A DNA stretch of 44,541 nt, taken from a virus. A model generated the notes under the pieces. That model did no database searches, was not told the DNA's origin, and worked only from the letters and a program-made list of their open reading frames with translations. Below, one piece after another: positions 3,276-17,825 of this stretch. The stretch is from positions 1 to 44,541 of the IMG/VR virus record IMGVR_UViG_3300049445_000392. One strand, 5' to 3'. Position 1 is the first letter of the stretch. Each line of letters opens with the position of its first letter. The position numbers and the translations under genes were made by a program.

Positions 3276-5816
3276 TCACTCCGTGCGTTTCCAAACCACA
3301 TAGCGTGCCTTCCCTTGATTCACGATCGTCCGGCGCGCTTCGGGGCGAAAGCGATCATCGTTGGGCGTGGTTTCGATGCGTCCGGCTTTCGCCCACTCAC
3401 GCATGACTGACATGTAAGATCTATTGTGCTTGACGAATAGATCCCTAAGCGATCGTGCGTTGATCCAGGTTTCGATTACTTGCCCGCTATCGTCCACCAC
3501 GCGGACCCCGTGGCGCGGCCCGGCATGGGAGTGCGGCGGCCGCACCGATCCGCGTGTGGTTTGCTGCGCGGCCGGGAACGCTTCGGGATTGGACGCGATC
3601 CAGGTTTCGAGCTCCGCCGCCATGGCTTCGGCCGCGCTTTCAATCGGTTCCGGATCCACCCCGTCCGCGTGCTGGCCGCTGCATACGGATTCGTGCTTCG
3701 CGAAGCCGTAGGCTTGCACCAAGAGCGCTTCCACCACGCCTAACAGGGAGTAGTAATCCGCCGTGCGGGAGCGCACTCCGGCCGCTTTGGTGTCCCCTAG
3801 ATACTTGGCCCGTGCATGTTCCCGGAGCTTGACTATGTGGGCCCACCCATTCGGGTCTTGCGCCAAGAGATCCGCAATCCACCGGGCCCCGAAGCTTCCC
3901 GCATGGCGCGCACAGTCGGACGCAAGCGCGTGGATCTTCGGCGCGTCACCGTCCAAAGTGCCGAAGCCTTCCACGTTCAGCGCCACCACGCGGGCTTGCG
4001 CGCCGGTGGCCATCCCTTCGCCCAAAGGGATCTCACCGGCCGATAGCACCACCGTCCGCCAATGGCGCGCGCGTTGCGCCGCCGCCGTGGCCGTGAGTCT
4101 TCCCCGCGACTCACCATTGGCCAGCGTGTAGATCAAGCGCTGGACCGTGACGGGGTCACTCGCACCCACTTCATCGTAGCAAAGCGGCAAGTCCGAAAGC
4201 GTGGCGGCGCGGAGCTCGGCCGCGTTGGCCGTGGTGTTCCACGTGGCGACCCACGCGGGATCGTCCGGATCCCCGAACATCGAAGCCGCAATGCGTAACA
4301 TGGTCGTTTTGCCGCGGGACGAATCCCCGCAAAGGTGGAGCGCGAAGCCGCGGCTTCGCAGTGGCCTTAGGAGCGTGGCGGCCAAAGCGGCACACATGAT
4401 CCGCCGCATGACCGGCCCCGTGTCCCAAGCGCGCCGGAGTGCCTCCGCGTGGGCTTCGAATTCACCCCGGGGCCGAAGTGCCGGGGCCACGCGGTCCAGC
4501 TCCCCGGCCACGGTGAACCCGTCCGCGTGGTCCAGCACGAAAGCCGCGCCGGCCTCCCCCGGGGTGCCGATCCATCCGGTGTGCGATACGGCGCGCGCCA
4601 CCGGGAGCACGGACTCATTGGCCAGCTCCAACGCCAAGAACCACGGGGCCATGTGCTTGGCCGTTTGGCTCGTCACCGGCGCGCCCACGGGGCCGAGCTC
4701 CGCCACCATGGCCCGTGCATCGATCAAGGCTTTGCGCGTCACTTGGGCCGTGGCCCACGCGCCGTTCGCTTTCCACGTCACGGTGGCGTTCTGTTCCCCG
4801 GTCACGTAGTCCGCGGCACGCGCCGTGATCATGATCGGGGCCGGGCCCACCACCACCGTTCTGTCCCCCGCCGCGCACGTCACTTGGCCCGTGGCCGAGA
4901 TCTGGTATCCCCGGGGGATCGCCATGTCCGCGGGGATTGGCGCGCCGGCCAAGCACTCCACCGCACTGGCCGCGGTGGTAGTGAGCTCCGCGGGGTCTTG
5001 GAGCGCTTGCGCGTCTTGCTCGATTACGGCCCGCGTCTTTTCGGCCCCGAACATGGCCAAGTAATCGTCGATCCCTTTGCACGGGCACCGCTTAGGAGGT
5101 GTGACAAACCACACCGCGGTGGCCCCGGCTTCGATCAAAGCGTCCCGGAACGCGTGCGCGGCCCGCATGACACCGGCGTTTTCCCACGCGTCTTGATCGT
5201 ACACCAAGACGTGTTCGCGGCCCGTGATCCGGACGTGGGCGAGGATCGTGGGGTGGATCGTGCGCGGCCCGCGTTCACCCTTTGCGCGCTTGGCGGACCA
5301 CGACTCCACCCCGGTTAGACCCACCACCGTGTAGCCTAACTGTTCGAGTGCTAGCGCTTTCTTTTCACCTTCCGTCCACAGTTGTGTCCCGTCTGACTGT
5401 AGCAAGCCGTCCGCGCGCGCACGCGGCGGGAAGTAGACCATGATGCCTATCCCGCGCGGCTGATCGTACTTGGCGTGACGCTTGCGGACCTTGTCATACC
5501 ACGGGTGATCCGCGCGCACGCGGAACGCGAACGGGGCCAGTGGCGGCGCGCCGGGGAGGTGGAAGGGGAACGCGATCGCGAAGCCGGAGTGGAGCGGATG
5601 CGTCCGGCCGAGTAAAGCGATCGCTTCATCTCGCGTTTCAATCGAGTACAGATCGGCCGCGTCTATCGTCGCATCGGTGAGTCCGGATGATTCGCGAAGG
5701 TGCCGCCGGTGGGCTTCGGTGAGCGCGCGCGCCGTGGGCGGGGGAAGCGGCGGCGGGGTGTAATCGGGCTTGCGCTTGGTGGACGCGGACTCCGTATCAT
5801 CATCACCGCGGGCCAT
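3276..5816 (-). CDS. Primase-helicase (DUF3854 TOPRIM-like plus DUF927 helicase domain)
   Basis: An 846-residue replication protein. The N-terminal half has a TOPRIM-like DUF3854 arrangement: WTEGEKKALAL (E149, E151) and VYDQD (D207, D209). The C-terminal half is a DUF927-type helicase: Walker A GDSSRGKTT at 497-505 and a Walker-B-like LPLCYDEV at 543-550. The last 120 residues look like a winged-helix tail (NARSLRDLFVKHNRSYMSVMREW). Such fusions prime and unwind DNA at phage and plasmid origins. It sits immediately beside the GTGTCCC repeat region, which supports both calls. It follows the 218-residue helical protein by 5 bp, so they are co-transcribed. Confidence 0.85.
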   Translation of the reverse strand: MARGDDDTESASTKRKPDYTPPPLPPPTARALTEAHRRHLRESSGLTDATIDAADLYSIETRDEAIALLGRTHPLHSGFAIAFPFHLPGAPPLAPFAFRVRADHPWYDKVRKRHAKYDQPRGIGIMVYFPPRARADGLLQSDGTQLWTEGEKKALALEQLGYTVVGLTGVESWSAKRAKGERGPRTIHPTILAHVRITGREHVLVYDQDAWENAGVMRAAHAFRDALIEAGATAVWFVTPPKRCPCKGIDDYLAMFGAEKTRAVIEQDAQALQDPAELTTTAASAVECLAGAPIPADMAIPRGYQISATGQVTCAAGDRTVVVGPAPIMITARAADYVTGEQNATVTWKANGAWATAQVTRKALIDARAMVAELGPVGAPVTSQTAKHMAPWFLALELANESVLPVARAVSHTGWIGTPGEAGAAFVLDHADGFTVAGELDRVAPALRPRGEFEAHAEALRRAWDTGPVMRRIMCAALAATLLRPLRSRGFALHLCGDSSRGKTTMLRIAASMFGDPDDPAWVATWNTTANAAELRAATLSDLPLCYDEVGASDPVTVQRLIYTLANGESRGRLTATAAAQRARHWRTVVLSAGEIPLGEGMATGAQARVVALNVEGFGTLDGDAPKIHALASDCARHAGSFGARWIADLLAQDPNGWAHIVKLREHARAKYLGDTKAAGVRSRTADYYSLLGVVEALLVQAYGFAKHESVCSGQHADGVDPEPIESAAEAMAAELETWIASNPEAFPAAQQTTRGSVRPPHSHAGPRHGVRVVDDSGQVIETWINARSLRDLFVKHNRSYMSVMREWAKAGRIETTPNDDRFRPEARRTIVNQGKARYVVWKRTE

Positions 5817-5821
5817 GTGGA

Positions 5822-6478
5822 CTACACCTCCGCGTGATCGTGCTCCGGGTTCGCGGTGGTGTGGTGGGGGTCAGCTCCGGGGATTGGCACGGGGTCCGGT
5901 GTACGCTCCCCGTATTCGTGGTGTGTGATCATTCCCGGCGGTTCGTGTGCGGCTTGTGTGCCGGTGGCACTTGCAATGTGTTGTAACGCTTCGGCCACGG
6001 TGAGCTCGGCCGGCGGTGGTGGCATATTGGGCACCACGGCCAAGCCATGGTGGCGGCGGCGGCGGCGCGAACCTATCGGCACCGGCGCGGCCACCGTGGG
6101 CGGATCCACCACGTCCAGCGTGAGCTGCAGCTCGGCCGCTGTTAGCGCGATAGTGTCCAGCGCTTCCCCGGTGTCCGTGCGGTGTGCGGTCTTGGAGCGC
6201 TCTTGATAGTTCGCGCGCCATTCCACGGTGATGGCCCGCATTTCGAAGCCCGCGTGGACCACGGTGGCGATTCGGCCGGCTTCGCGTGCGTGGGAGCGTG
6301 CCAACTTAGACAGCTCGGCCGCGTCCGCTTTGAGCGATGCGGCTTGCTCGGCCGCGGCCGCCATGCGGGCCCCGCGATCTAGTTTTTCCGTGTCGGTGAG
6401 CTGGCACGCTAGATCCCGGACTTCGGTGGTGATCACCGGCCGTTCGTCGGTGGTGGGCGGCTTGGTAGCGTCGCTCAT
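5822..6478 (-). CDS. Helical hypothetical protein in the replication operon
   Basis: A 218-residue protein of unknown function. Residues about 15-110 are predicted mainly helical and rich in Ala, Glu and Lys (TDTEKLDRGARMAAAAEQAA and LKADAAELSKLARSHAREAG), suggesting a coiled coil; a short basic patch GSRRRRRHH follows and the C-terminus is Pro/His-rich. The ATG at 6478 overlaps the stop of the HTH/H1-like gene as ATGA, which rules out the longer frame that starts inside that gene. It probably acts with the primase that follows it, but no function can be assigned. Confidence 0.7.
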   Translation of the reverse strand: MSDATKPPTTDERPVITTEVRDLACQLTDTEKLDRGARMAAAAEQAASLKADAAELSKLARSHAREAGRIATVVHAGFEMRAITVEWRANYQERSKTAHRTDTGEALDTIALTAAELQLTLDVVDPPTVAAPVPIGSRRRRRHHGLAVVPNMPPPPAELTVAEALQHIASATGTQAAHEPPGMITHHEYGERTPDPVPIPGADPHHTTANPEHDHAEV

Positions 6479-6900
6479 GATGCCACCGCCTTGCGGCCGC
6501 GGCGGGACGTGGTGGTGGTGGTGGTGCGCGCGCGCTTGCTGGCCGCGGCACGGCCGGTGGAGCGCGTGGACTTGGCCTTGGCCGGCTTGGCCGCGGGCTT
6601 CGGCTTGCGCTTCGCTCCCACCGCCGCGGGCTTCGGCTTCGCGTTGCGCTTGGCCTTGGGATCTAGCGGGCCGCAAAGATCCGCCATAGTGACGGCCCCG
6701 CCGGTATGTTGGACGATCTTGAAAGCGTGCTCCAAGCTGGCCCGGACGCGGCCGTGGGCGATCAGCCATAGCGTGGACACACCCCACTGCTTGGCACACA
6801 CAGTGATATGACGCTTAGGATCGGCGTCGAACCACTGCTTTAGCGGGGTGGTAGGCTCGTCAATTGCGGACGCTTCGGGGGTGGGCATGGGGTCCACCAC
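6475..6900 (-). CDS. HTH protein with histone-H1-like basic tail
   Basis: A 141-residue protein made of two parts. Residues 20-80 resemble a small Cro/YdaS-like HTH (HITVCAKQWGVSTLWLIAHG). Residues 82-141 are a Lys/Ala/Pro-rich tail (KPKPAA, AKPAKAKS, SRRGRK) like eukaryotic H1 or bacterial HctA/Hc1-type nucleoid proteins. It is first in the left-going operon and diverges from the XRE repressor gene, the place of Cro in lambda. A dual role as early switch and DNA-condensing protein is inference. Its upstream region carries paired operator-like repeats. Confidence 0.7.
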   Translation of the reverse strand: MVDPMPTPEASAIDEPTTPLKQWFDADPKRHITVCAKQWGVSTLWLIAHGRVRASLEHAFKIVQHTGGAVTMADLCGPLDPKAKRNAKPKPAAVGAKRKPKPAAKPAKAKSTRSTGRAAASKRARTTTTTTSRRGRKAVAS

Positions 6901-6901
6901 G

Positions 6902-6941
6902 CTACACGATCCATGCGTCGGTGCGTGAACGGATCGTGTAA
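6902..6941. promoter_or_regulatory. Bipartite operator in the divergent control region
   Basis: Two inverted copies of the half-site TACACGATCC, at 6903-6912 and reversed at 6931-6940, separated by exactly 18 bp. The same arrangement and spacing recur at 8282-8321. It abuts the start codon of the HTH/H1-like gene, so binding here would block the left-going operon. Confidence 0.65.
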
Positions 6942-7039
6942 CGCGTGCATAGGTCCCAAAGGTGACCCAGCGTCACCAAAGCGCCCACATTGCGCATTTT
7001 CCGGGGTTTGGTTGCCGTTCCCGGGGTGCGTATTGGCTC

Positions 7040-8281: not shown

Positions 8282-8321
8282 CTACACGATCCGCGTATAC
8301 GCGGTTACATGGATCGTGTAG
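8282..8321. promoter_or_regulatory. Bipartite operator overlapping the nuclease start codon
   Basis: CTACACGATCC at 8282-8292 and its reverse complement GGATCGTGTAG at 8311-8321, 11-bp perfect arms with an 18-bp gap, the same spacing as at 6902-6941. The gap contains most of a 14-bp perfect palindrome, CCGCGTATACGCGG (8291-8304). The ATG of the nuclease gene (8309) lies at the edge of the right half-site, so binding should block the right-going early operon. Confidence 0.65.
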
Positions 8322-9382
8322 CGGACTCATTGTGGCCGTGGGACCACCGCAAGTATGGGAGTCTGTTAGACCCCGTCCATAAGTCTCACTGTAGTTATTT
8401 CGTTGGACATTTTGCGTGTCCAAAACAGTTCCAATACGTGCGGACTGATAGGGACGGCCAGCTCCGCGAATCCGGCATGCGTGCGAGTTTGGGCACCGCC
8501 GGCCACGCGGTGGTGGCCATGGTGTTAGATGGCACGTGGACCGGCCACCGGGACGCGGGAACGATCGCGCGCTGGATTGCGCGCGCCGTGCCGGACGCGG
8601 ATCCGGAAGACGTGATGGACACCGCGGCCGCGGCGGACGGCTTGATCGCGGACTTGCCGCGGTGGGTCTTGCGTGTGATCGGGGTGGAGCAAGGCTTCAT
8701 CGCGCCGTTCGGTGATTACTGGCTCGCTGGACACATCGATCTGATCTACGAACCCGTGGCGGCCCCGGGCACCGTGGCCATGTGTGATTGGAAGTTTGGC
8801 GCGCAAAAGCCGCACCCCATTGCTTTGGAACACGGGTTCGAAGCGGGCTTGTACTCGGCCGCACTGCACACGGGGTACTTTGAAGATCCCGTGGGCCGTG
8901 ACCGCGTGGGCTTGGAACGGGATCTGATCCGCGAAGTCCAAGCCGCGGCGGATCCACGGTACGTCAAGCCCACCTACGGGGCTTTCCCAAGCCAGATCCA
9001 CCAAGTCCACGCGGCGGACTACGTCCCGTATAAGCGCGCCGGGAGCAAGCTCTTGGAGCGGCCGGAAGACTTGGCGCTGCATGGGTATAGGGAAGCTACC
9101 CAGCACAAGTACAAGGCGGGGGATCGGCGCGGCGGGGCTTGGATGCCTATTAGGTTGCGGCCGGACGTTCTGTCCCGCTTCCACTCACGCTTGCGGGTGA
9201 TCGTGGGGACGGTCCGGCTTGGCCGCTTCATTGATAGCCCGGACGAAAAGTGTGGACGGTGTCACTACCGCGGAGCGTGCTTGAACGCGGGGTATGCAGC
9301 GGGGAGCACGGAAGACGATTACGCCGCGCTAGCGCGGCTTGAAAAGGCGGAGCGTGCACATGAGCGCGGAAAGCTCACGTGA
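8309..9382 (+). CDS. PD-(D/E)XK nuclease with iron-sulfur cluster motif (Cas4/AddB-like)
   Basis: A 357-residue RecB-family exonuclease. The core is GTAGHAVV (H66), E127, GHIDLIYE (D144) and CDWKFG (D160, K162), the PD-(D/E)XK signature. Four cysteines, C37 and then CxxCx5C at 315, 318 and 324, match the 4Fe-4S cluster arrangement of Cas4 and AddB nucleases. It probably processes DNA ends for phage recombination or replication together with the RecD2-like helicase downstream. It is the first gene of the right-going operon and overlaps the C5 methyltransferase start as GTGA. The absence of cas1/cas2 argues against CRISPR adaptation. Confidence 0.85.
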   Translation: MDRVADSLWPWDHRKYGSLLDPVHKSHCSYFVGHFACPKQFQYVRTDRDGQLRESGMRASLGTAGHAVVAMVLDGTWTGHRDAGTIARWIARAVPDADPEDVMDTAAAADGLIADLPRWVLRVIGVEQGFIAPFGDYWLAGHIDLIYEPVAAPGTVAMCDWKFGAQKPHPIALEHGFEAGLYSAALHTGYFEDPVGRDRVGLERDLIREVQAAADPRYVKPTYGAFPSQIHQVHAADYVPYKRAGSKLLERPEDLALHGYREATQHKYKAGDRRGGAWMPIRLRPDVLSRFHSRLRVIVGTVRLGRFIDSPDEKCGRCHYRGACLNAGYAAGSTEDDYAALARLEKAERAHERGKLT

Positions 9383-11421: not shown

Positions 11422-12330
11422 ATGGCACCTAGATCAAACGCTAACACCGCGAATCCTTCCACCGCCGCCGCACCGGCCGCGCCACCTTCCACCGCACTGA
11501 CTAACCCGGCCGATGAAGCCGCCGCGCTGGCCGCCTTGAACGCATCCGTGGAAGGGGATGAAGTTTACGACGGCTTTTCCGAGAGCATGGGATCGGATCA
11601 GTTCCGGCTTCCCCGCCGCCTTTTCAATCAGTCCAAAGGGACAGACGTGGACGGTAACCGGCTTGTTCCGGATGTGTACTACGATCCGATTTCACAGCGC
11701 TCCGCCAAGACGATCGATGCGATCTTGATCATGGAGCACACCACGCGTGCGTTCACTACGTACGATGAAGACACGGAAGAAACGACATACATATGTATGT
11801 CGAACGATTGCGTGACCGGGATCGAACAAGCCACGCAACGGCCGCGCACATGCAAGGGGTGTCCGGACGCGGCGTGGAAAAAGAACGCCAAAGGGAAGCG
11901 TTCGGTGAACTGCGACGAGTCTTACTACGTGCTGGCCGTGGACATGGCCACGCGCGAACCGTTCGTGATTTTGTTCCGGCGGACTTCGGCCAGCGCGATC
12001 CGGACCCACGTGCAAAGGCACCACTTCGGCAAGCGTGAGCTCCCGGACGGCCGGAAAGCAAACATGCCGCTCTATTGGCGGCGCGTGCGCTTGTCCTTGG
12101 AGCTGTCGGAAAACGGCAAGTATGCCGTACCGGTGATCGAAGTGACCGGTGTCACGGACCCCGCTACGGCGGACATGTGCCGCGAAACGCTGGACGCGTA
12201 CCGAAGCATACTCACGCGCGCGGAAGACCACTCCAAGGCGGAAGCGGCCCCGGCGGCGGCCGCTAACGGCGGCGGCGGCGGCGGCGCGCCTAACACCAGC
12301 TTCGATCCGGAAGACTTCGATCGGAGCTGA
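11422..12330 (+). CDS. Putative single-stranded DNA-binding or replication accessory protein
   Basis: A 302-residue protein with an Ala/Pro/Thr-rich N-terminus, a central beta-rich domain, a cysteine group (ICMSNDC, RTCKGCP, NCDESY) that could bind zinc, and a C-terminus built like SSB: a Gly linker (GGGGGG) followed by an acidic, hydrophobic-containing tip (FDPEDFDRS). Its position among nuclease and RecD2-like genes fits a ssDNA-binding protein. Sequence similarity to classical SSB is not evident, so the call rests on tail architecture and context. Confidence 0.5.
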   Translation: MAPRSNANTANPSTAAAPAAPPSTALTNPADEAAALAALNASVEGDEVYDGFSESMGSDQFRLPRRLFNQSKGTDVDGNRLVPDVYYDPISQRSAKTIDAILIMEHTTRAFTTYDEDTEETTYICMSNDCVTGIEQATQRPRTCKGCPDAAWKKNAKGKRSVNCDESYYVLAVDMATREPFVILFRRTSASAIRTHVQRHHFGKRELPDGRKANMPLYWRRVRLSLELSENGKYAVPVIEVTGVTDPATADMCRETLDAYRSILTRAEDHSKAEAAPAAAANGGGGGGAPNTSFDPEDFDRS

Positions 12331-12332
12331 TC

Positions 12333-13340
12333 ATGGGAGCATCGATCACGCTTCGGGGAACGCTGGACCGGTGGCAGCAACACGGGGACACGGGGTGGGG
12401 GCGCGGCACGTTCACGCCCACCACGGGCCCCGGGGACCGCGTGACCGTGGTGGGCACGATCCGCGGAGCTCGGCCCGGTGACGCGGTGGAGCTCACCGGC
12501 ACACACGAAACACATCCCAAGTACGGCGCGCAGTTCAAAGTCACCGCCGGGGCCGTGACGATCCCGGACTCCGTGGACGGCGCAGTGGCGTGGATCGCCC
12601 ACCACCTTCCGATGCTAGGGAAGAAACGCGCGCGCGCCATGCTGGACCACTTCGGGGGACTGGACGCGTTTTGGAAGGTGGTGGAGTCGAACCCCGGCCG
12701 GCTGGCCGAAGTGCCGGGGATCACTGCGGAGCGTGCGGTGGAGATCCAAGCGGTCTATGCGACGGTGAAAGACACACGCGAACACGGAAGCACGCTCCGC
12801 GGGTGGGGTTTGACGGAAGGTCAGATCTCTAAATGCATGATGGTGTTCGGCCGGGATCTAGCGGACGTGGTGGAAGCCATCCGCGCGAACCCCTATCAAC
12901 TGTATGAGCGCGTGCCGGGGTTTGGATGGCTCACGGCGGACGCGGTGGCGCGCCGCACCGGGATCCCTATGGAGTCCCCGGTGCGGATCCGTTCCGCCTT
13001 GCGGCACGTTCTAGAATCACACATGAGCGAACACGGCCACGTGTTCATGGTGCCGATCGATTTCCAAGTGGCGGTGGGTGAGCTCTTGAGTTTGAGCAAG
13101 CTCACCGTGTTGGACTCAATCGATATCGCTTTGGCCAAGGGGGAGATCATCCGCCGGGGCAAGCGTATTTACGCGGCGAAAATCGACGCGATCGAAATGC
13201 TGTTAGCGGATTACATCGTTAGACGCGGAGGGTTAGTGTATGCGAACCGTAGTGATCGAAAGTCCAATGGCGGGCCGGCCGCCGGCATGGGTGTGGAAGA
13301 TCTTTCGTCCGGCGGTGGCGTGGATCCTATATCAACGTAA
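12333..13340 (+). CDS. RecD2-like helicase, N-terminal half (split gene)
   Basis: A 335-residue protein equal to the N-terminal half of RecD2 helicases: an OB-like domain (about 1-75, HPKYGAQFKV), helix-hairpin-helix segments (LPMLGKKRARAMLDHFGG; NPYQLYERVPGFGWLTADAV) and the winged-helix part ending at IYAAKIDAIEMLLADYIVRR. No ATPase motif is present. The last 34 residues overlap the next gene and look like read-through. The helicase motifs are encoded separately at 13752-14975, after an inserted 516-bp gene. The two halves may assemble in trans; their summed length (742) is normal for RecD2. Confidence 0.85.
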   Translation: MGASITLRGTLDRWQQHGDTGWGRGTFTPTTGPGDRVTVVGTIRGARPGDAVELTGTHETHPKYGAQFKVTAGAVTIPDSVDGAVAWIAHHLPMLGKKRARAMLDHFGGLDAFWKVVESNPGRLAEVPGITAERAVEIQAVYATVKDTREHGSTLRGWGLTEGQISKCMMVFGRDLADVVEAIRANPYQLYERVPGFGWLTADAVARRTGIPMESPVRIRSALRHVLESHMSEHGHVFMVPIDFQVAVGELLSLSKLTVLDSIDIALAKGEIIRRGKRIYAAKIDAIEMLLADYIVRRGGLVYANRSDRKSNGGPAAGMGVEDLSSGGGVDPIST

Positions 13341-13755
13341 CCGTCGGTATGCGTTGGCATGCGTTAGACACGCGGTGTTAGTCATGGGTGAAAGCCCCTA
13401 CGCATCCCACGTGATGTTCGGCCACGCGCTGAACGATCGCGTGGCCGCGGAGCGCGATGTGGGTATGCGAATCGGTTTCCAGTGGGGGGCCATGGCCGAA
13501 GCGCGGATCGTATATTGTGACCTTGGGATCGCCCCGGGCATGGAAGCCGGGATCGCGAACCGCCCCGCGGGCCAAGTGTTGGAGTTTAGATATCTAGATC
13601 CCAAGAACGTCCACCGGTGCGACATGTGCGGGGTGATGGTTCCGCCGGACACGAACCATTGCGGATCCACGCGGTGTGCCGTGGCCGTCCACATGAAGCT
13701 CCCGCCGCGGCCGGCCGGCGGGGGAACCATCCGCGGCCCGTGGGGTGACACGTGA
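13240..13755 (+). CDS. DUF7768-like protein with C-terminal zinc-ribbon-like motif, inserted in recD2
   Basis: A 171-residue protein resembling the DUF7768/DUF4406 group, related to nucleoside 2-deoxyribosyltransferases: VVIESPMAG, NRRYALACVRHAVLVMGESP, then YASHVMFGHALNDRVAAERD and GMEAGIANR. The C-terminus has a CxxC...C...C pattern (CDMCGV, HCGSTRC) suggesting a zinc ribbon. It has its own strong ribosome binding site (GGAGG, 8 nt before ATG 13240), starts inside the RecD2 N-terminal gene and overlaps the ATPase-half start as GTGA. In phages this family is often near replication genes; its substrate is unknown. Confidence 0.7.
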   Translation: MRTVVIESPMAGRPPAWVWKIFRPAVAWILYQRNRRYALACVRHAVLVMGESPYASHVMFGHALNDRVAAERDVGMRIGFQWGAMAEARIVYCDLGIAPGMEAGIANRPAGQVLEFRYLDPKNVHRCDMCGVMVPPDTNHCGSTRCAVAVHMKLPPRPAGGGTIRGPWGDT

Positions 13756-14975
13756 GCGCGCTGGTTTTGGACGCGTCCCAAGCCCACGCGGTGGAGCTTA
13801 TGCTCCGCGCGCGCTTCGGCTTGGTGACGGGCCCACCGGGGTCCGGCAAAACCACCACGCTACGGACCGCGCTGGCCGAGCTCCCGCCGGGGGAACGCGC
13901 GGCCCTTGCGGCGCCCACGGGCAAGGCGGCGCGCCGGATGGAGCAAAGCACCGGCCGGCCGGCGGTGACGCTTCACCGGTTGCTAGGGTACCGGCCCGGG
14001 GCCGGCTTCACCGTGGACGCGGTGGACGCGTCCGTGGTGATCGTCGACGAAGCCAGCATGATCGATTATGAGCTCGGACTTGCGCTGATGGAGCGCACGG
14101 GCCACGCACGCTTGATCCTAGTGGGCGATGCGGATCAGCTCCCGCCGGTGGGCCCCGGCCGGATGTTCGGGGACTTGGTGGACTCCGAAGCGGCCCCGGT
14201 GGCGCGGCTTCGAACCCAGCACCGCGCCGCCGCGGAGTCATGGGTGGCGCGCAACGCTCCGCGCGTTTTGACCGGTGGGCCGCTTGAACTGGACGCGTGC
14301 CCGGGGTTTGAGCTGATCGAAGTGGAGCAAGCCGCGGACGTGCCGGCGGCCGTGCGCGGGGCCATCGTAGCGGCGGGATATTCACGGGCCGGCGGCGCGG
14401 ACGCGGTGCCGCCCATGGTCTTGTCACCACAGAAACCCGGCGGCGCGGGGTGTGACGGCTTGGGCCGGGAGCTCGATTCGCTCTTGAACCTGAACAGCCC
14501 CGTGGCGGCGGACGGGGAACCCACGCGTTCACGCGGGCCGGACCGCGTGGGGATTCGGCTTGGGACGCGAGTGATCCAAACCGCGAATGACTATGACTTG
14601 GGCGTGATGAACGGGGAGCTAGGCACGGTCACGGACTTCCCCGCCGGTGGCCCGATCACCGTCCACTTCCCGGACTTGGGATCGTTCGCGCAATACACGC
14701 TCAGTGACTCGGACGCGTTGCAGCAAGCGTACGCGCTCACCATACACAAGACGCAGGGGAGCGAGTTTCAACACGTGATCTGTGTAGTCCATTCGACACA
14801 CACACGTATGCTCAATAGATCGATCCTGTACACCGCGATCACGCGCGCCAAGGCGAAGGTGACGATCGTGGGGGACCGCAAGGGGATCGGCCGCGCCTTG
14901 AAGAAAGACGGCGCGCGCCGGGACACCACGCTGATCGAGAGAATCGCGGGGACTTTGGAAGGTGTGAGAATCTAG
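13752..14975 (+). CDS. RecD2-like helicase, C-terminal ATPase half (SF1B)
   Basis: A 407-residue helicase core: Walker A TGPPGSGKTT at 26-35, APTGKAA (54-60), DEAS motif II at 99-102, GDADQLPPV motif III, ALTIHKTQGSEF and ILYTAITRAK motifs V-VI. It begins with SALVLDASQAHAVELML, which matches the junction just before Walker A in intact RecD2. It starts at a GTG overlapping the DUF7768-like gene. It should act 5'-to-3' on DNA, presumably with the N-terminal half encoded at 12333. Together with the Fe-S nuclease it could form an end-processing module. Confidence 0.9.
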   Translation: MSALVLDASQAHAVELMLRARFGLVTGPPGSGKTTTLRTALAELPPGERAALAAPTGKAARRMEQSTGRPAVTLHRLLGYRPGAGFTVDAVDASVVIVDEASMIDYELGLALMERTGHARLILVGDADQLPPVGPGRMFGDLVDSEAAPVARLRTQHRAAAESWVARNAPRVLTGGPLELDACPGFELIEVEQAADVPAAVRGAIVAAGYSRAGGADAVPPMVLSPQKPGGAGCDGLGRELDSLLNLNSPVAADGEPTRSRGPDRVGIRLGTRVIQTANDYDLGVMNGELGTVTDFPAGGPITVHFPDLGSFAQYTLSDSDALQQAYALTIHKTQGSEFQHVICVVHSTHTRMLNRSILYTAITRAKAKVTIVGDRKGIGRALKKDGARRDTTLIERIAGTLEGVRI

Positions 14976-15849: not shown

Positions 15850-15884
15850 CCCCGCCGGGAGCGAACCCGGCGGGGTGTTTTTTT
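15850..15884 (+). terminator. Intrinsic terminator after the early operon
   Basis: Perfect 10-bp stem CCCCGCCGGG/CCCGGCGGGG with a 6-nt loop, then TG and seven T residues. It follows the excisionase-like gene by 34 bp. Confidence 0.9.
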
Positions 15885-16463: not shown

Positions 16464-17825
16464 TTATTGAATGGTTGCAGCTAGTTGCTTCCGGCGCCCG
16501 CCGCGGCCCGGCAATAGACGGCGAACGCCGGTGGCAATGATGATCTGACCGGTGCGGAGCTCCGGGATAGCTAGGTTGAGTGGAGCAAGGTCCAGCCACC
16601 CCGCCGCGCGGAACAGCTCCGCTTCGCGCGTGTAGCGCTTGATCATTTCCGCGGACGTGTGGCCGGTGTGTTCGCGGACTTCCGCATCTGTCAAGCGGCG
16701 TGCGATCCCAAGCGTGACCCACAAAGCGCGCAAGTCATGAGCGCGTGCCCAGTCCTGCGAACCCGCTTCCGTTCCACGCTCAAACAGGATCGGCCGCGTC
16801 TTACGTAGGCCGGCCGCTTCCAAATACTTCCGGTAGTACATGGCCGCGTGGGCTTGCGGGAATGTCGGATGGAAGATCCGGTCAGTGGACTTGGCGTTCG
16901 GAAAGTACATGTCCCGGTATTGCTCCAAGCCTTCCACCGTGCCGGCGGATGCCACCCACTGTCCCCATTTCTTGGTCTTCCTCCACCACGCGCGGAGCAC
17001 GTTCGCCTTACCCATCTTGATCACCCCGGCCCACGTGAGATCCCACGCATCATCCATGCGGGCCCCTTCGCGGGCTAGGTAGGCAAAGAACACGCGATCG
17101 TGGACGGAGATCGCGGTGCACTCACATACGGCTTCGTCATCGGTGGGCCATAGCGTGGCGGGGACGCGGTGGCGGGTTTGCTTCGGACGTGCGCCGCGGG
17201 GGACGGGGTAGATCTTGATCAGCCGTAGTGGGTACACGGCCAGCGAAATCACACGCGCCGCCGTGTTCCACACGCCCACGCGTGCGCCTTGGGTAAGGTG
17301 TGCGCAGCGCTCCGCATTGAACACTTGGGTCAAGTGGTCCACGTCCACCACTTCCACCGGCACGTGGCCGATCTCCGGATAGATGTATTCCGAAAGCTGA
17401 CGTTTGAGATCGTCCAAGCATGCACGTTCTTTGATCCCTTGGATCTCCCCACGCATCCACATTTCGCCCACGTCCCGGACGGTCTTCCCCACACGTGTGG
17501 CGCGGTCCTTGGTGATGTTCTGTGCCACCAAGCCGTCCCGGATCATCCGCTCCCACGCGGGCCGGAGCATGGCGCCGTCCAAGCCCACGGTGACGCGTGC
17601 GGCCCGGTTGAGCTCGGCCGTGAGTTCATCACGCGTCACCGTGCCGGTGGCGAATAGCACGCGTGCGTGCTCCACGATCGCGCCTTGGAGCCAGTCCGTG
17701 TGAGGATCCCCGGGAAGCCGGTGGAGCGGCACCGAGATCCGGGACGCGCCGCCACCGAGTGAAATGCGCACGATCACCGTGCCGTCCTTCGCGTAATCAC
17801 GACTGCCGCTTGCTGGTTTGCCCAC
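16464..17825 (-). CDS. int: Tyrosine-recombinase integrase
   Basis: A 453-residue phage integrase. The catalytic domain shows REGARMDDAWDLTW (R256), HDLRALWVT (H363, R366), EHTGHTS (H389) and the nucleophile in MIKRYTRE (Y398). The N-terminal half has arm-binding and core-binding regions. It starts with a GTG at 17825 preceded by AGGAG (9 nt). It integrates the phage DNA at a host attachment site and makes this a temperate element. An operator-like motif at 17916-17925 and the shared GCGTGCATAG element lie upstream, so expression is probably under the repressor. Confidence 0.95.
   Translation of the reverse strand: MGKPASGSRDYAKDGTVIVRISLGGGASRISVPLHRLPGDPHTDWLQGAIVEHARVLFATGTVTRDELTAELNRAARVTVGLDGAMLRPAWERMIRDGLVAQNITKDRATRVGKTVRDVGEMWMRGEIQGIKERACLDDLKRQLSEYIYPEIGHVPVEVVDVDHLTQVFNAERCAHLTQGARVGVWNTAARVISLAVYPLRLIKIYPVPRGARPKQTRHRVPATLWPTDDEAVCECTAISVHDRVFFAYLAREGARMDDAWDLTWAGVIKMGKANVLRAWWRKTKKWGQWVASAGTVEGLEQYRDMYFPNAKSTDRIFHPTFPQAHAAMYYRKYLEAAGLRKTRPILFERGTEAGSQDWARAHDLRALWVTLGIARRLTDAEVREHTGHTSAEMIKRYTREAELFRAAGWLDLAPLNLAIPELRTGQIIIATGVRRLLPGRGGRRKQLAATIQ

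Follow-up and report, generated by a model that had tools for sequence, protein, structure and literature searches.

The locus between positions 12333 and 14975 of the 44,541-base virus record analysed here (hereafter the window) raises the question of why a helicase of the RecD2 type should be encoded by two genes with a third one between them, and whether the separate products still make up one enzyme. The genes for the N-terminal subunit (12333-13340, 335 aa; OB fold, HhH, HHH_RecD2 and winged helix), for a DUF7768 protein (13240-13755, 171 aa; Pfam PF24963, phrog_355) and for the core subunit (13752-14975, 407 aa; SF1B helicase domains 1A, SH3 and 2A) lie head to tail on the plus strand. 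As stated in a preliminary description of this DNA, the middle gene has its own ribosome-binding site, a GGAGG-type sequence located on the plus strand inside the N-half gene (13227-13231, give or take a few bases) and about 8 nt ahead of the ATG, and it overlaps both neighbours. The overlap with the N half comprises 101 nt; that between the DUF7768 stop and the core start comprises the 4 nt GTGA (13752-13755, plus strand) and suggests translational coupling of the two genes. A search of the plus strand for terminator-like hairpins revealed none between 12333 and 15564, and an intrinsic-terminator-like hairpin of 10 G-C pairs followed by a T run is located at 15850-15875 (plus strand), 3' of the core gene. 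The three genes presumably form one operon.

The same early module contains a PD-(D/E)XK (RecB/Cas4-like) nuclease gene (8309-9382, plus strand; Pfam PDDEXK_1). Immediately 5' of recD2-N lies a conserved gene (11422-12330, plus strand) with a weak Pam3 gp34-like match (E 0.0065, under the cut-off); similar ORFs are found upstream of recD2 in five of the related IMG/VR records described below (L001, L003, L004, L005 and L015). The 846-aa product of 3276-5816 (minus strand), which contains DUF927 and DUF3854, is a probable helicase/primase-type replication protein. The structural genes (22367-44251, minus strand) include a Mu-type portal protein (PF06074) and DUF2586, and a tyrosine-type integrase is indicated at 16464-17825 by a Pfam match below the cut-off. 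The virus is therefore probably a temperate phage. Between 17960 and 20490, eight copies of CGCTTGACGAAAAT are dispersed over both strands; the whole window contains 10 matches at up to two mismatches, compared to 0.28 expected. Five of the sites also have TTACCCTGGGTACT (0.08 expected), which follows a TATACT/TAAACT-like -10 element. Judged by their sequence, these sites resemble repeats of a sigma-70 promoter equipped with a palindromic operator; the integrase gene is close by.

Both flanking products were assigned to RecD2 by means of profile searches. For the product of 12333-13340, the Pfam domains OB_YrrC (4e-10), HHH_5 (3e-5) and HHH_RecD2 (3.5e-20) were found; the matches to OB_YrrC and HHH_RecD2 exceed the Pfam cut-off, so a RecD2-type N-terminal region occupies a gene of its own. 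The product of 13752-14975 matches AAA_30 (5e-35), SH3_13 (5e-8, albeit at 33 bits and thus under the 41-bit cut-off) and UvrD_C_2. Both products belong to the same phage family, phrog_4412, but match it in complementary regions: of the 743 profile positions, 46 to 296 are covered by the N half and 331 to 737 by the core. The core contains motifs I-VI of the motor (among them GPPGSGKT, VDEAS, GDADQLPP, HKTQGSE and YTAITRA), and the helicase motifs are invariant across the aligned cores. A PDB profile search with the core gave an E-value of 1e-75 for RecD2 (3e1s) and of 7e-14 for Dda (3upu); RecD2 leads by about 100 bits.

The cut lies where the preliminary description had placed it. The RecD2-homologous part of the N half extends over about 302 aa, as in its relatives, and ends at approximately 13238. 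The core resumes about 30 residues ahead of the Walker A lysine (LDASQ...GPPGSGKT), and its relatives start there, too. Together, the two parts amount to 302 + 407 = 709 aa, compared to 756 aa for the intact RecD2 of L015, which agrees with the claim that their summed length equals that of a normal RecD2. The last 33 residues of the N protein do not belong to RecD2 but result from the N frame running on into the DUF7768 gene, because the overlap is constrained in the DUF7768 frame (dN/dS 0.21) and not in the N frame (1.9, from few codons). N-terminal region and core are thus not combined in one polypeptide; two ORFs with a gene between them constitute a split, non-canonical variant of RecD2.

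The split is not confined to this assembly. Five relatives (L001-L005) were identified when IMG/VR was scanned with the core; identity is 93% for one of them and 55-59% for the other four. All are split, and DUF7768 directly follows the N half except in L004, where one additional small gene precedes it. A scan with DUF7768 added L095 as a seventh phage, the window included, having the order N - DUF7768 - C. The arrangement thus recurs in six further records, each from a different metagenome; five of these phages have diverged widely from the window. Chance and misassembly are therefore excluded. Furthermore, purifying selection acts on all three genes: two pairs of phages yielded dN/dS values of 0.205 for N, 0.19-0.21 for DUF7768 and 0.136 for C (window versus L001), and of 0.25, 0.25 and 0.21, respectively (L002 versus L003). 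Frameshift-like cuts are a frequent error in metagenome contigs, but seven far-diverged contigs from separate metagenomes, in which an entire gene separates the halves, and dN/dS values of 0.14-0.21 in the window, reduce the probability of a sequencing or assembly artefact or of a decaying pseudogene to practically nil.

A wider scan with the core profile, in which the records were scored with N, C and DUF7768 profiles, distinguished three states. DUF7768 lies between the halves in the window, L001-L005 and L095. In nine further phages (L013, L014, L016, L018, L048, L055, L086, L068 and L074) recD2 is split without DUF7768 between the halves, and a search of their whole records for DUF7768 gave no match. 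Both RecD2 parts are thus conserved in seven genomes with and in nine without the intervening DUF7768 gene. The third state, an intact recD2, is found in L015, L017, L029 and many others; in these three sister phages a DUF7768 gene lies 0.6-1.3 kb downstream. According to the preliminary description, homologous genomes with intact recD2 together with a split confined to this assembly would speak against it; the split is not so confined, although sister phages with intact recD2 do exist. In each split phage the cut is located at the same domain boundary, and N and C are on the same strand and mostly adjacent. The halves directly overlap or abut in five of the nine phages of the second state (GTGA in L014, ATGA in L048 and L086; also L016 and L055), whereas those of L068 and L074 are about 2 kb apart. 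The junction of L013 is occupied by another small gene. Here, the two halves share one frame and are separated by a TAG (4342-4344) and about 50 codons that do not resemble coding sequence in this frame; the distinct small ORF is in another one. Of the 80 bacterial best matches, 78 have an intact recD2, and a contig end truncates the remaining two. In a scan of genome_contigs, all RecD2 genes found were intact, and no prophage of the present phage group appeared. L045 contains an intact phage RecD2 ORF of 1203 aa (3430-7038) whose core is interrupted near profile position 329 by about 440 residues, a possible intein or inserted domain.

Phylogenetic trees were used to deduce how often the split arose. 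In the core tree, the window clade includes L013 (support 97/87 for these eight rows) and is adjoined by L014 and by the sisters with intact recD2; the N tree agrees on the window clade. The tree requires at least four changes of state, and forcing all split cores together was rejected (AU p = 0.0036). Fission, or fission followed by re-fusion, has therefore happened more than once. When the window clade, L013 and L014 were constrained to group to the exclusion of the intact sisters, the tree fitted as well as the unconstrained one (p = 0.52); a clade of the DUF7768-bearing rows without L013 is disfavoured (p = 0.04). Consequently, fission is not necessarily linked to DUF7768, which L013 has probably lost. 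The DUF7768 proteins of split phages and intact sisters are kin (an SH-aLRT of 95 sets them and one other row apart from 49 others), and the PD-(D/E)XK nuclease, present in 11 of 26 records, is common to the window clade, L013, L095 and the intact-recD2 sisters. It follows that one phage group has both fused and split recD2, with DUF7768 at differing places.

The intervening protein is, as had been proposed, DUF7768-like: the product of 13240-13755 matches PF24963 with 2e-15 and 57.3 bits (cut-off 26; 55-67 bits for its relatives) and phrog_355 with 1.7e-9. It has a Cys-rich C-terminal tail. A search of PDB sequences yielded nothing, and no paper on DUF7768 was found in a literature search. 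An AF2 model (pLDDT 82, confident up to about residue 140) was compared with known structures by means of Foldseek. The top hits were nucleoside 2-deoxyribosyltransferases, with a probability of 1.00 but weak scores (E 0.008, TM 0.45). In line with the phrog_355 match, the model suggests a nucleoside-deoxyribosyltransferase-like protein with a probable role in nucleotide metabolism or modification. In viral contigs, 74 of 80 DUF7768 loci have no recD2 nearby, and DUF7768 is thus a generic phage gene.

Other genes occupy the junction as well. In L002, a GIY-YIG-like (MUG113/T5orf172) nuclease gene (3600-3992) lies directly before recD2-C. The junction of L003 contains a gene (3396-3998) that looks by eye like a PD-(D/E)XK nuclease, albeit having no Pfam match, and a further ORF; small genes are found in L004, L013 and L095. 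The recD2 junction seems to be an attractive site for nuclease genes. Homing endonucleases of T4-type phages are a precedent for the claim that the insertion itself split the gene, and both the position of DUF7768 and the nuclease-type genes at the same spot in L002 and L003 could be read in this way. However, no nuclease or mobility domain was detected in DUF7768 by Pfam, PHROG or Foldseek, the same split exists without it in L013, L014 and seven others, other or additional genes sit at the junction elsewhere, and a split that predates the divergence of L014 fits the tree equally well. Insertion of DUF7768 as the cause of the fission is consequently very improbable, and a homing-endonuclease event involving this gene was rejected as a candidate.

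It had also been suggested that the inserted protein is a third partner of the helicase. A true third subunit or regulator, placed between the halves for a fixed ratio of the three proteins, would be in line with the occurrence of DUF7768 between the halves in seven of eight clade members, with the overlaps that link the genes in the window and with purifying selection; the related copy that three sister phages have downstream of their intact recD2 could be read likewise. In contrast, L013 is nested in the clade and has no DUF7768 in its record, the DUF7768-bearing rows alone are disfavoured as a clade, and the junction is shared with other genes. Since the large majority of DUF7768 loci lie away from recD2, this suggestion found no support, and we regard a third subunit as improbable. 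DUF7768 would rather be a passenger at the junction.

In order to assess whether the halves are compatible with RecD2 packing, those of L013 were read through the TAG as one chain, solely for the purpose of modelling. When unpaired N-only and C-only rows were aligned to this linked chain, MAFFT spread the N rows over the core, and the result was not used for folding. Because an alignment of intact RecD2s was used instead, the model shows a fit to this packing and not binding of the halves. The linked model has a pTM of 0.85, with both halves confident and a disordered 44-residue linker (pLDDT < 50). Superposition on 3gpl, 3gp8 and 3e1s covered 573-617 columns with TM values of 0.83-0.86 by target; for the DNA-bound RecD2 3gp8, these values are 617 columns and 0.84. 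The split halves are thus predicted to still fit the packing of RecD2.

Taken together, the conserved split, purifying selection, the agreeing N and C trees and the packing-compatible model support the two-subunit RecD2 that the preliminary description had envisaged. It is likely that fission occurred at a domain boundary and that the products of one operon rejoin as a two-subunit, RecD2-like 5'-3' helicase, with DUF7768 as a passenger. In an ancestor of the phage group, recD2 would have been cut in the linker between winged helix and domain 1A, which separated the N-terminal region (about 300 aa) from the SF1B motor core. The halves, translated from one operon, would reassemble non-covalently as a heterodimer in which the N subunit may contact the fork and ssDNA, and the C subunit may provide ATPase activity and 5'-3' translocation. 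Because read-through was no longer needed, the junction could have become a permissive site that collects small genes, such as DUF7768 in this clade. Physical assembly, helicase activity and the role of each subunit are what we infer from these data.

Two alternatives concern the relationship of the halves. According to the first, the fission was adaptive: the free N protein would work in trans and serve the core, and perhaps also the co-encoded RecB/Cas4-like nuclease, as an exchangeable factor for loading or strand switching, the subunit ratio would set the mode of the helicase, and DUF7768 would possibly be a nucleotide-sensing regulator. We consider this rather unlikely. Somewhat less unlikely, but still clearly disfavoured, is the absence of a joint enzyme, the core alone being a Dda/RecD-like helicase and the N half an independent DNA-binding protein with another role. 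T4 Dda and Pif1 work without an N-terminal region of the RecD2 type, and the core of the split enzyme retains all motor motifs. Other phages possess core-only helicases of about 410-450 aa (for example L050, L053 and L058), near which a diverged N half was sought and not found; the core of split RecD2 might therefore act alone. These helicases, and the distance between the halves in L068 and L074, argue against two subunits of one enzyme. On the other hand, every split phage found has N together with C on the same strand, the cut lies at the same boundary each time, the two trees agree, and the model fits RecD2 packing, which argues for the two-subunit enzyme.

The phage pair can be compared with several known systems. 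Bacterial RecD2 (Deinococcus radiodurans 3e1s/3gp8, Bacillus subtilis YrrC) has the same domains in the same order (OB, HhH, HHH_RecD2, winged helix, 1A, SH3, 2A) and the same motor motifs; the phage has two genes with another one between, whereas the bacterial best matches are one ORF where complete. T4 Dda and the core-only SF1B helicases of phages resemble the window core in length and motor motifs, but the latter is closer to RecD2 and is accompanied by a RecD2 N region. By sequence, the window DUF7768 is a clear member of PF24963 that differs from most others by its Cys-rich tail and its location inside a split recD2. In T4-type phages, enzymes of DNA metabolism likewise occur as two polypeptides that need reassembly (nrdA of Aeh1, polymerase 43A/43B of phages 25 and 44RR, topoisomerase 39/60 of T4), in some phages with an intervening gene (PMC2988022). 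The split NrdA of Aeh1 is fully functional, and the parts of the phage 25 polymerase co-purify and are active (PMC2988022). The RecD2 case concerns another enzyme and another phage group, has DUF7768 rather than a homing endonuclease as intervening gene, and shows the split at one and the same domain boundary in several lineages. A search of the open literature gave no report of a split RecD2. The split is thus a new enzyme for a known class, the split phage replication enzymes, and RecD2 joins their short list as tolerant of fission. After fission, the junction becomes a site where small genes collect. The N-terminal region of RecD2, comprising about 280 aa, has been reported as uncharacterised and as a likely mediator of strand switching at forks (PMC12143592). 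The natural split offers a way to study the role of this part: RecD2-N is made as a separate protein in several lineages, such that motor and N region can be purified apart, titrated and recombined.
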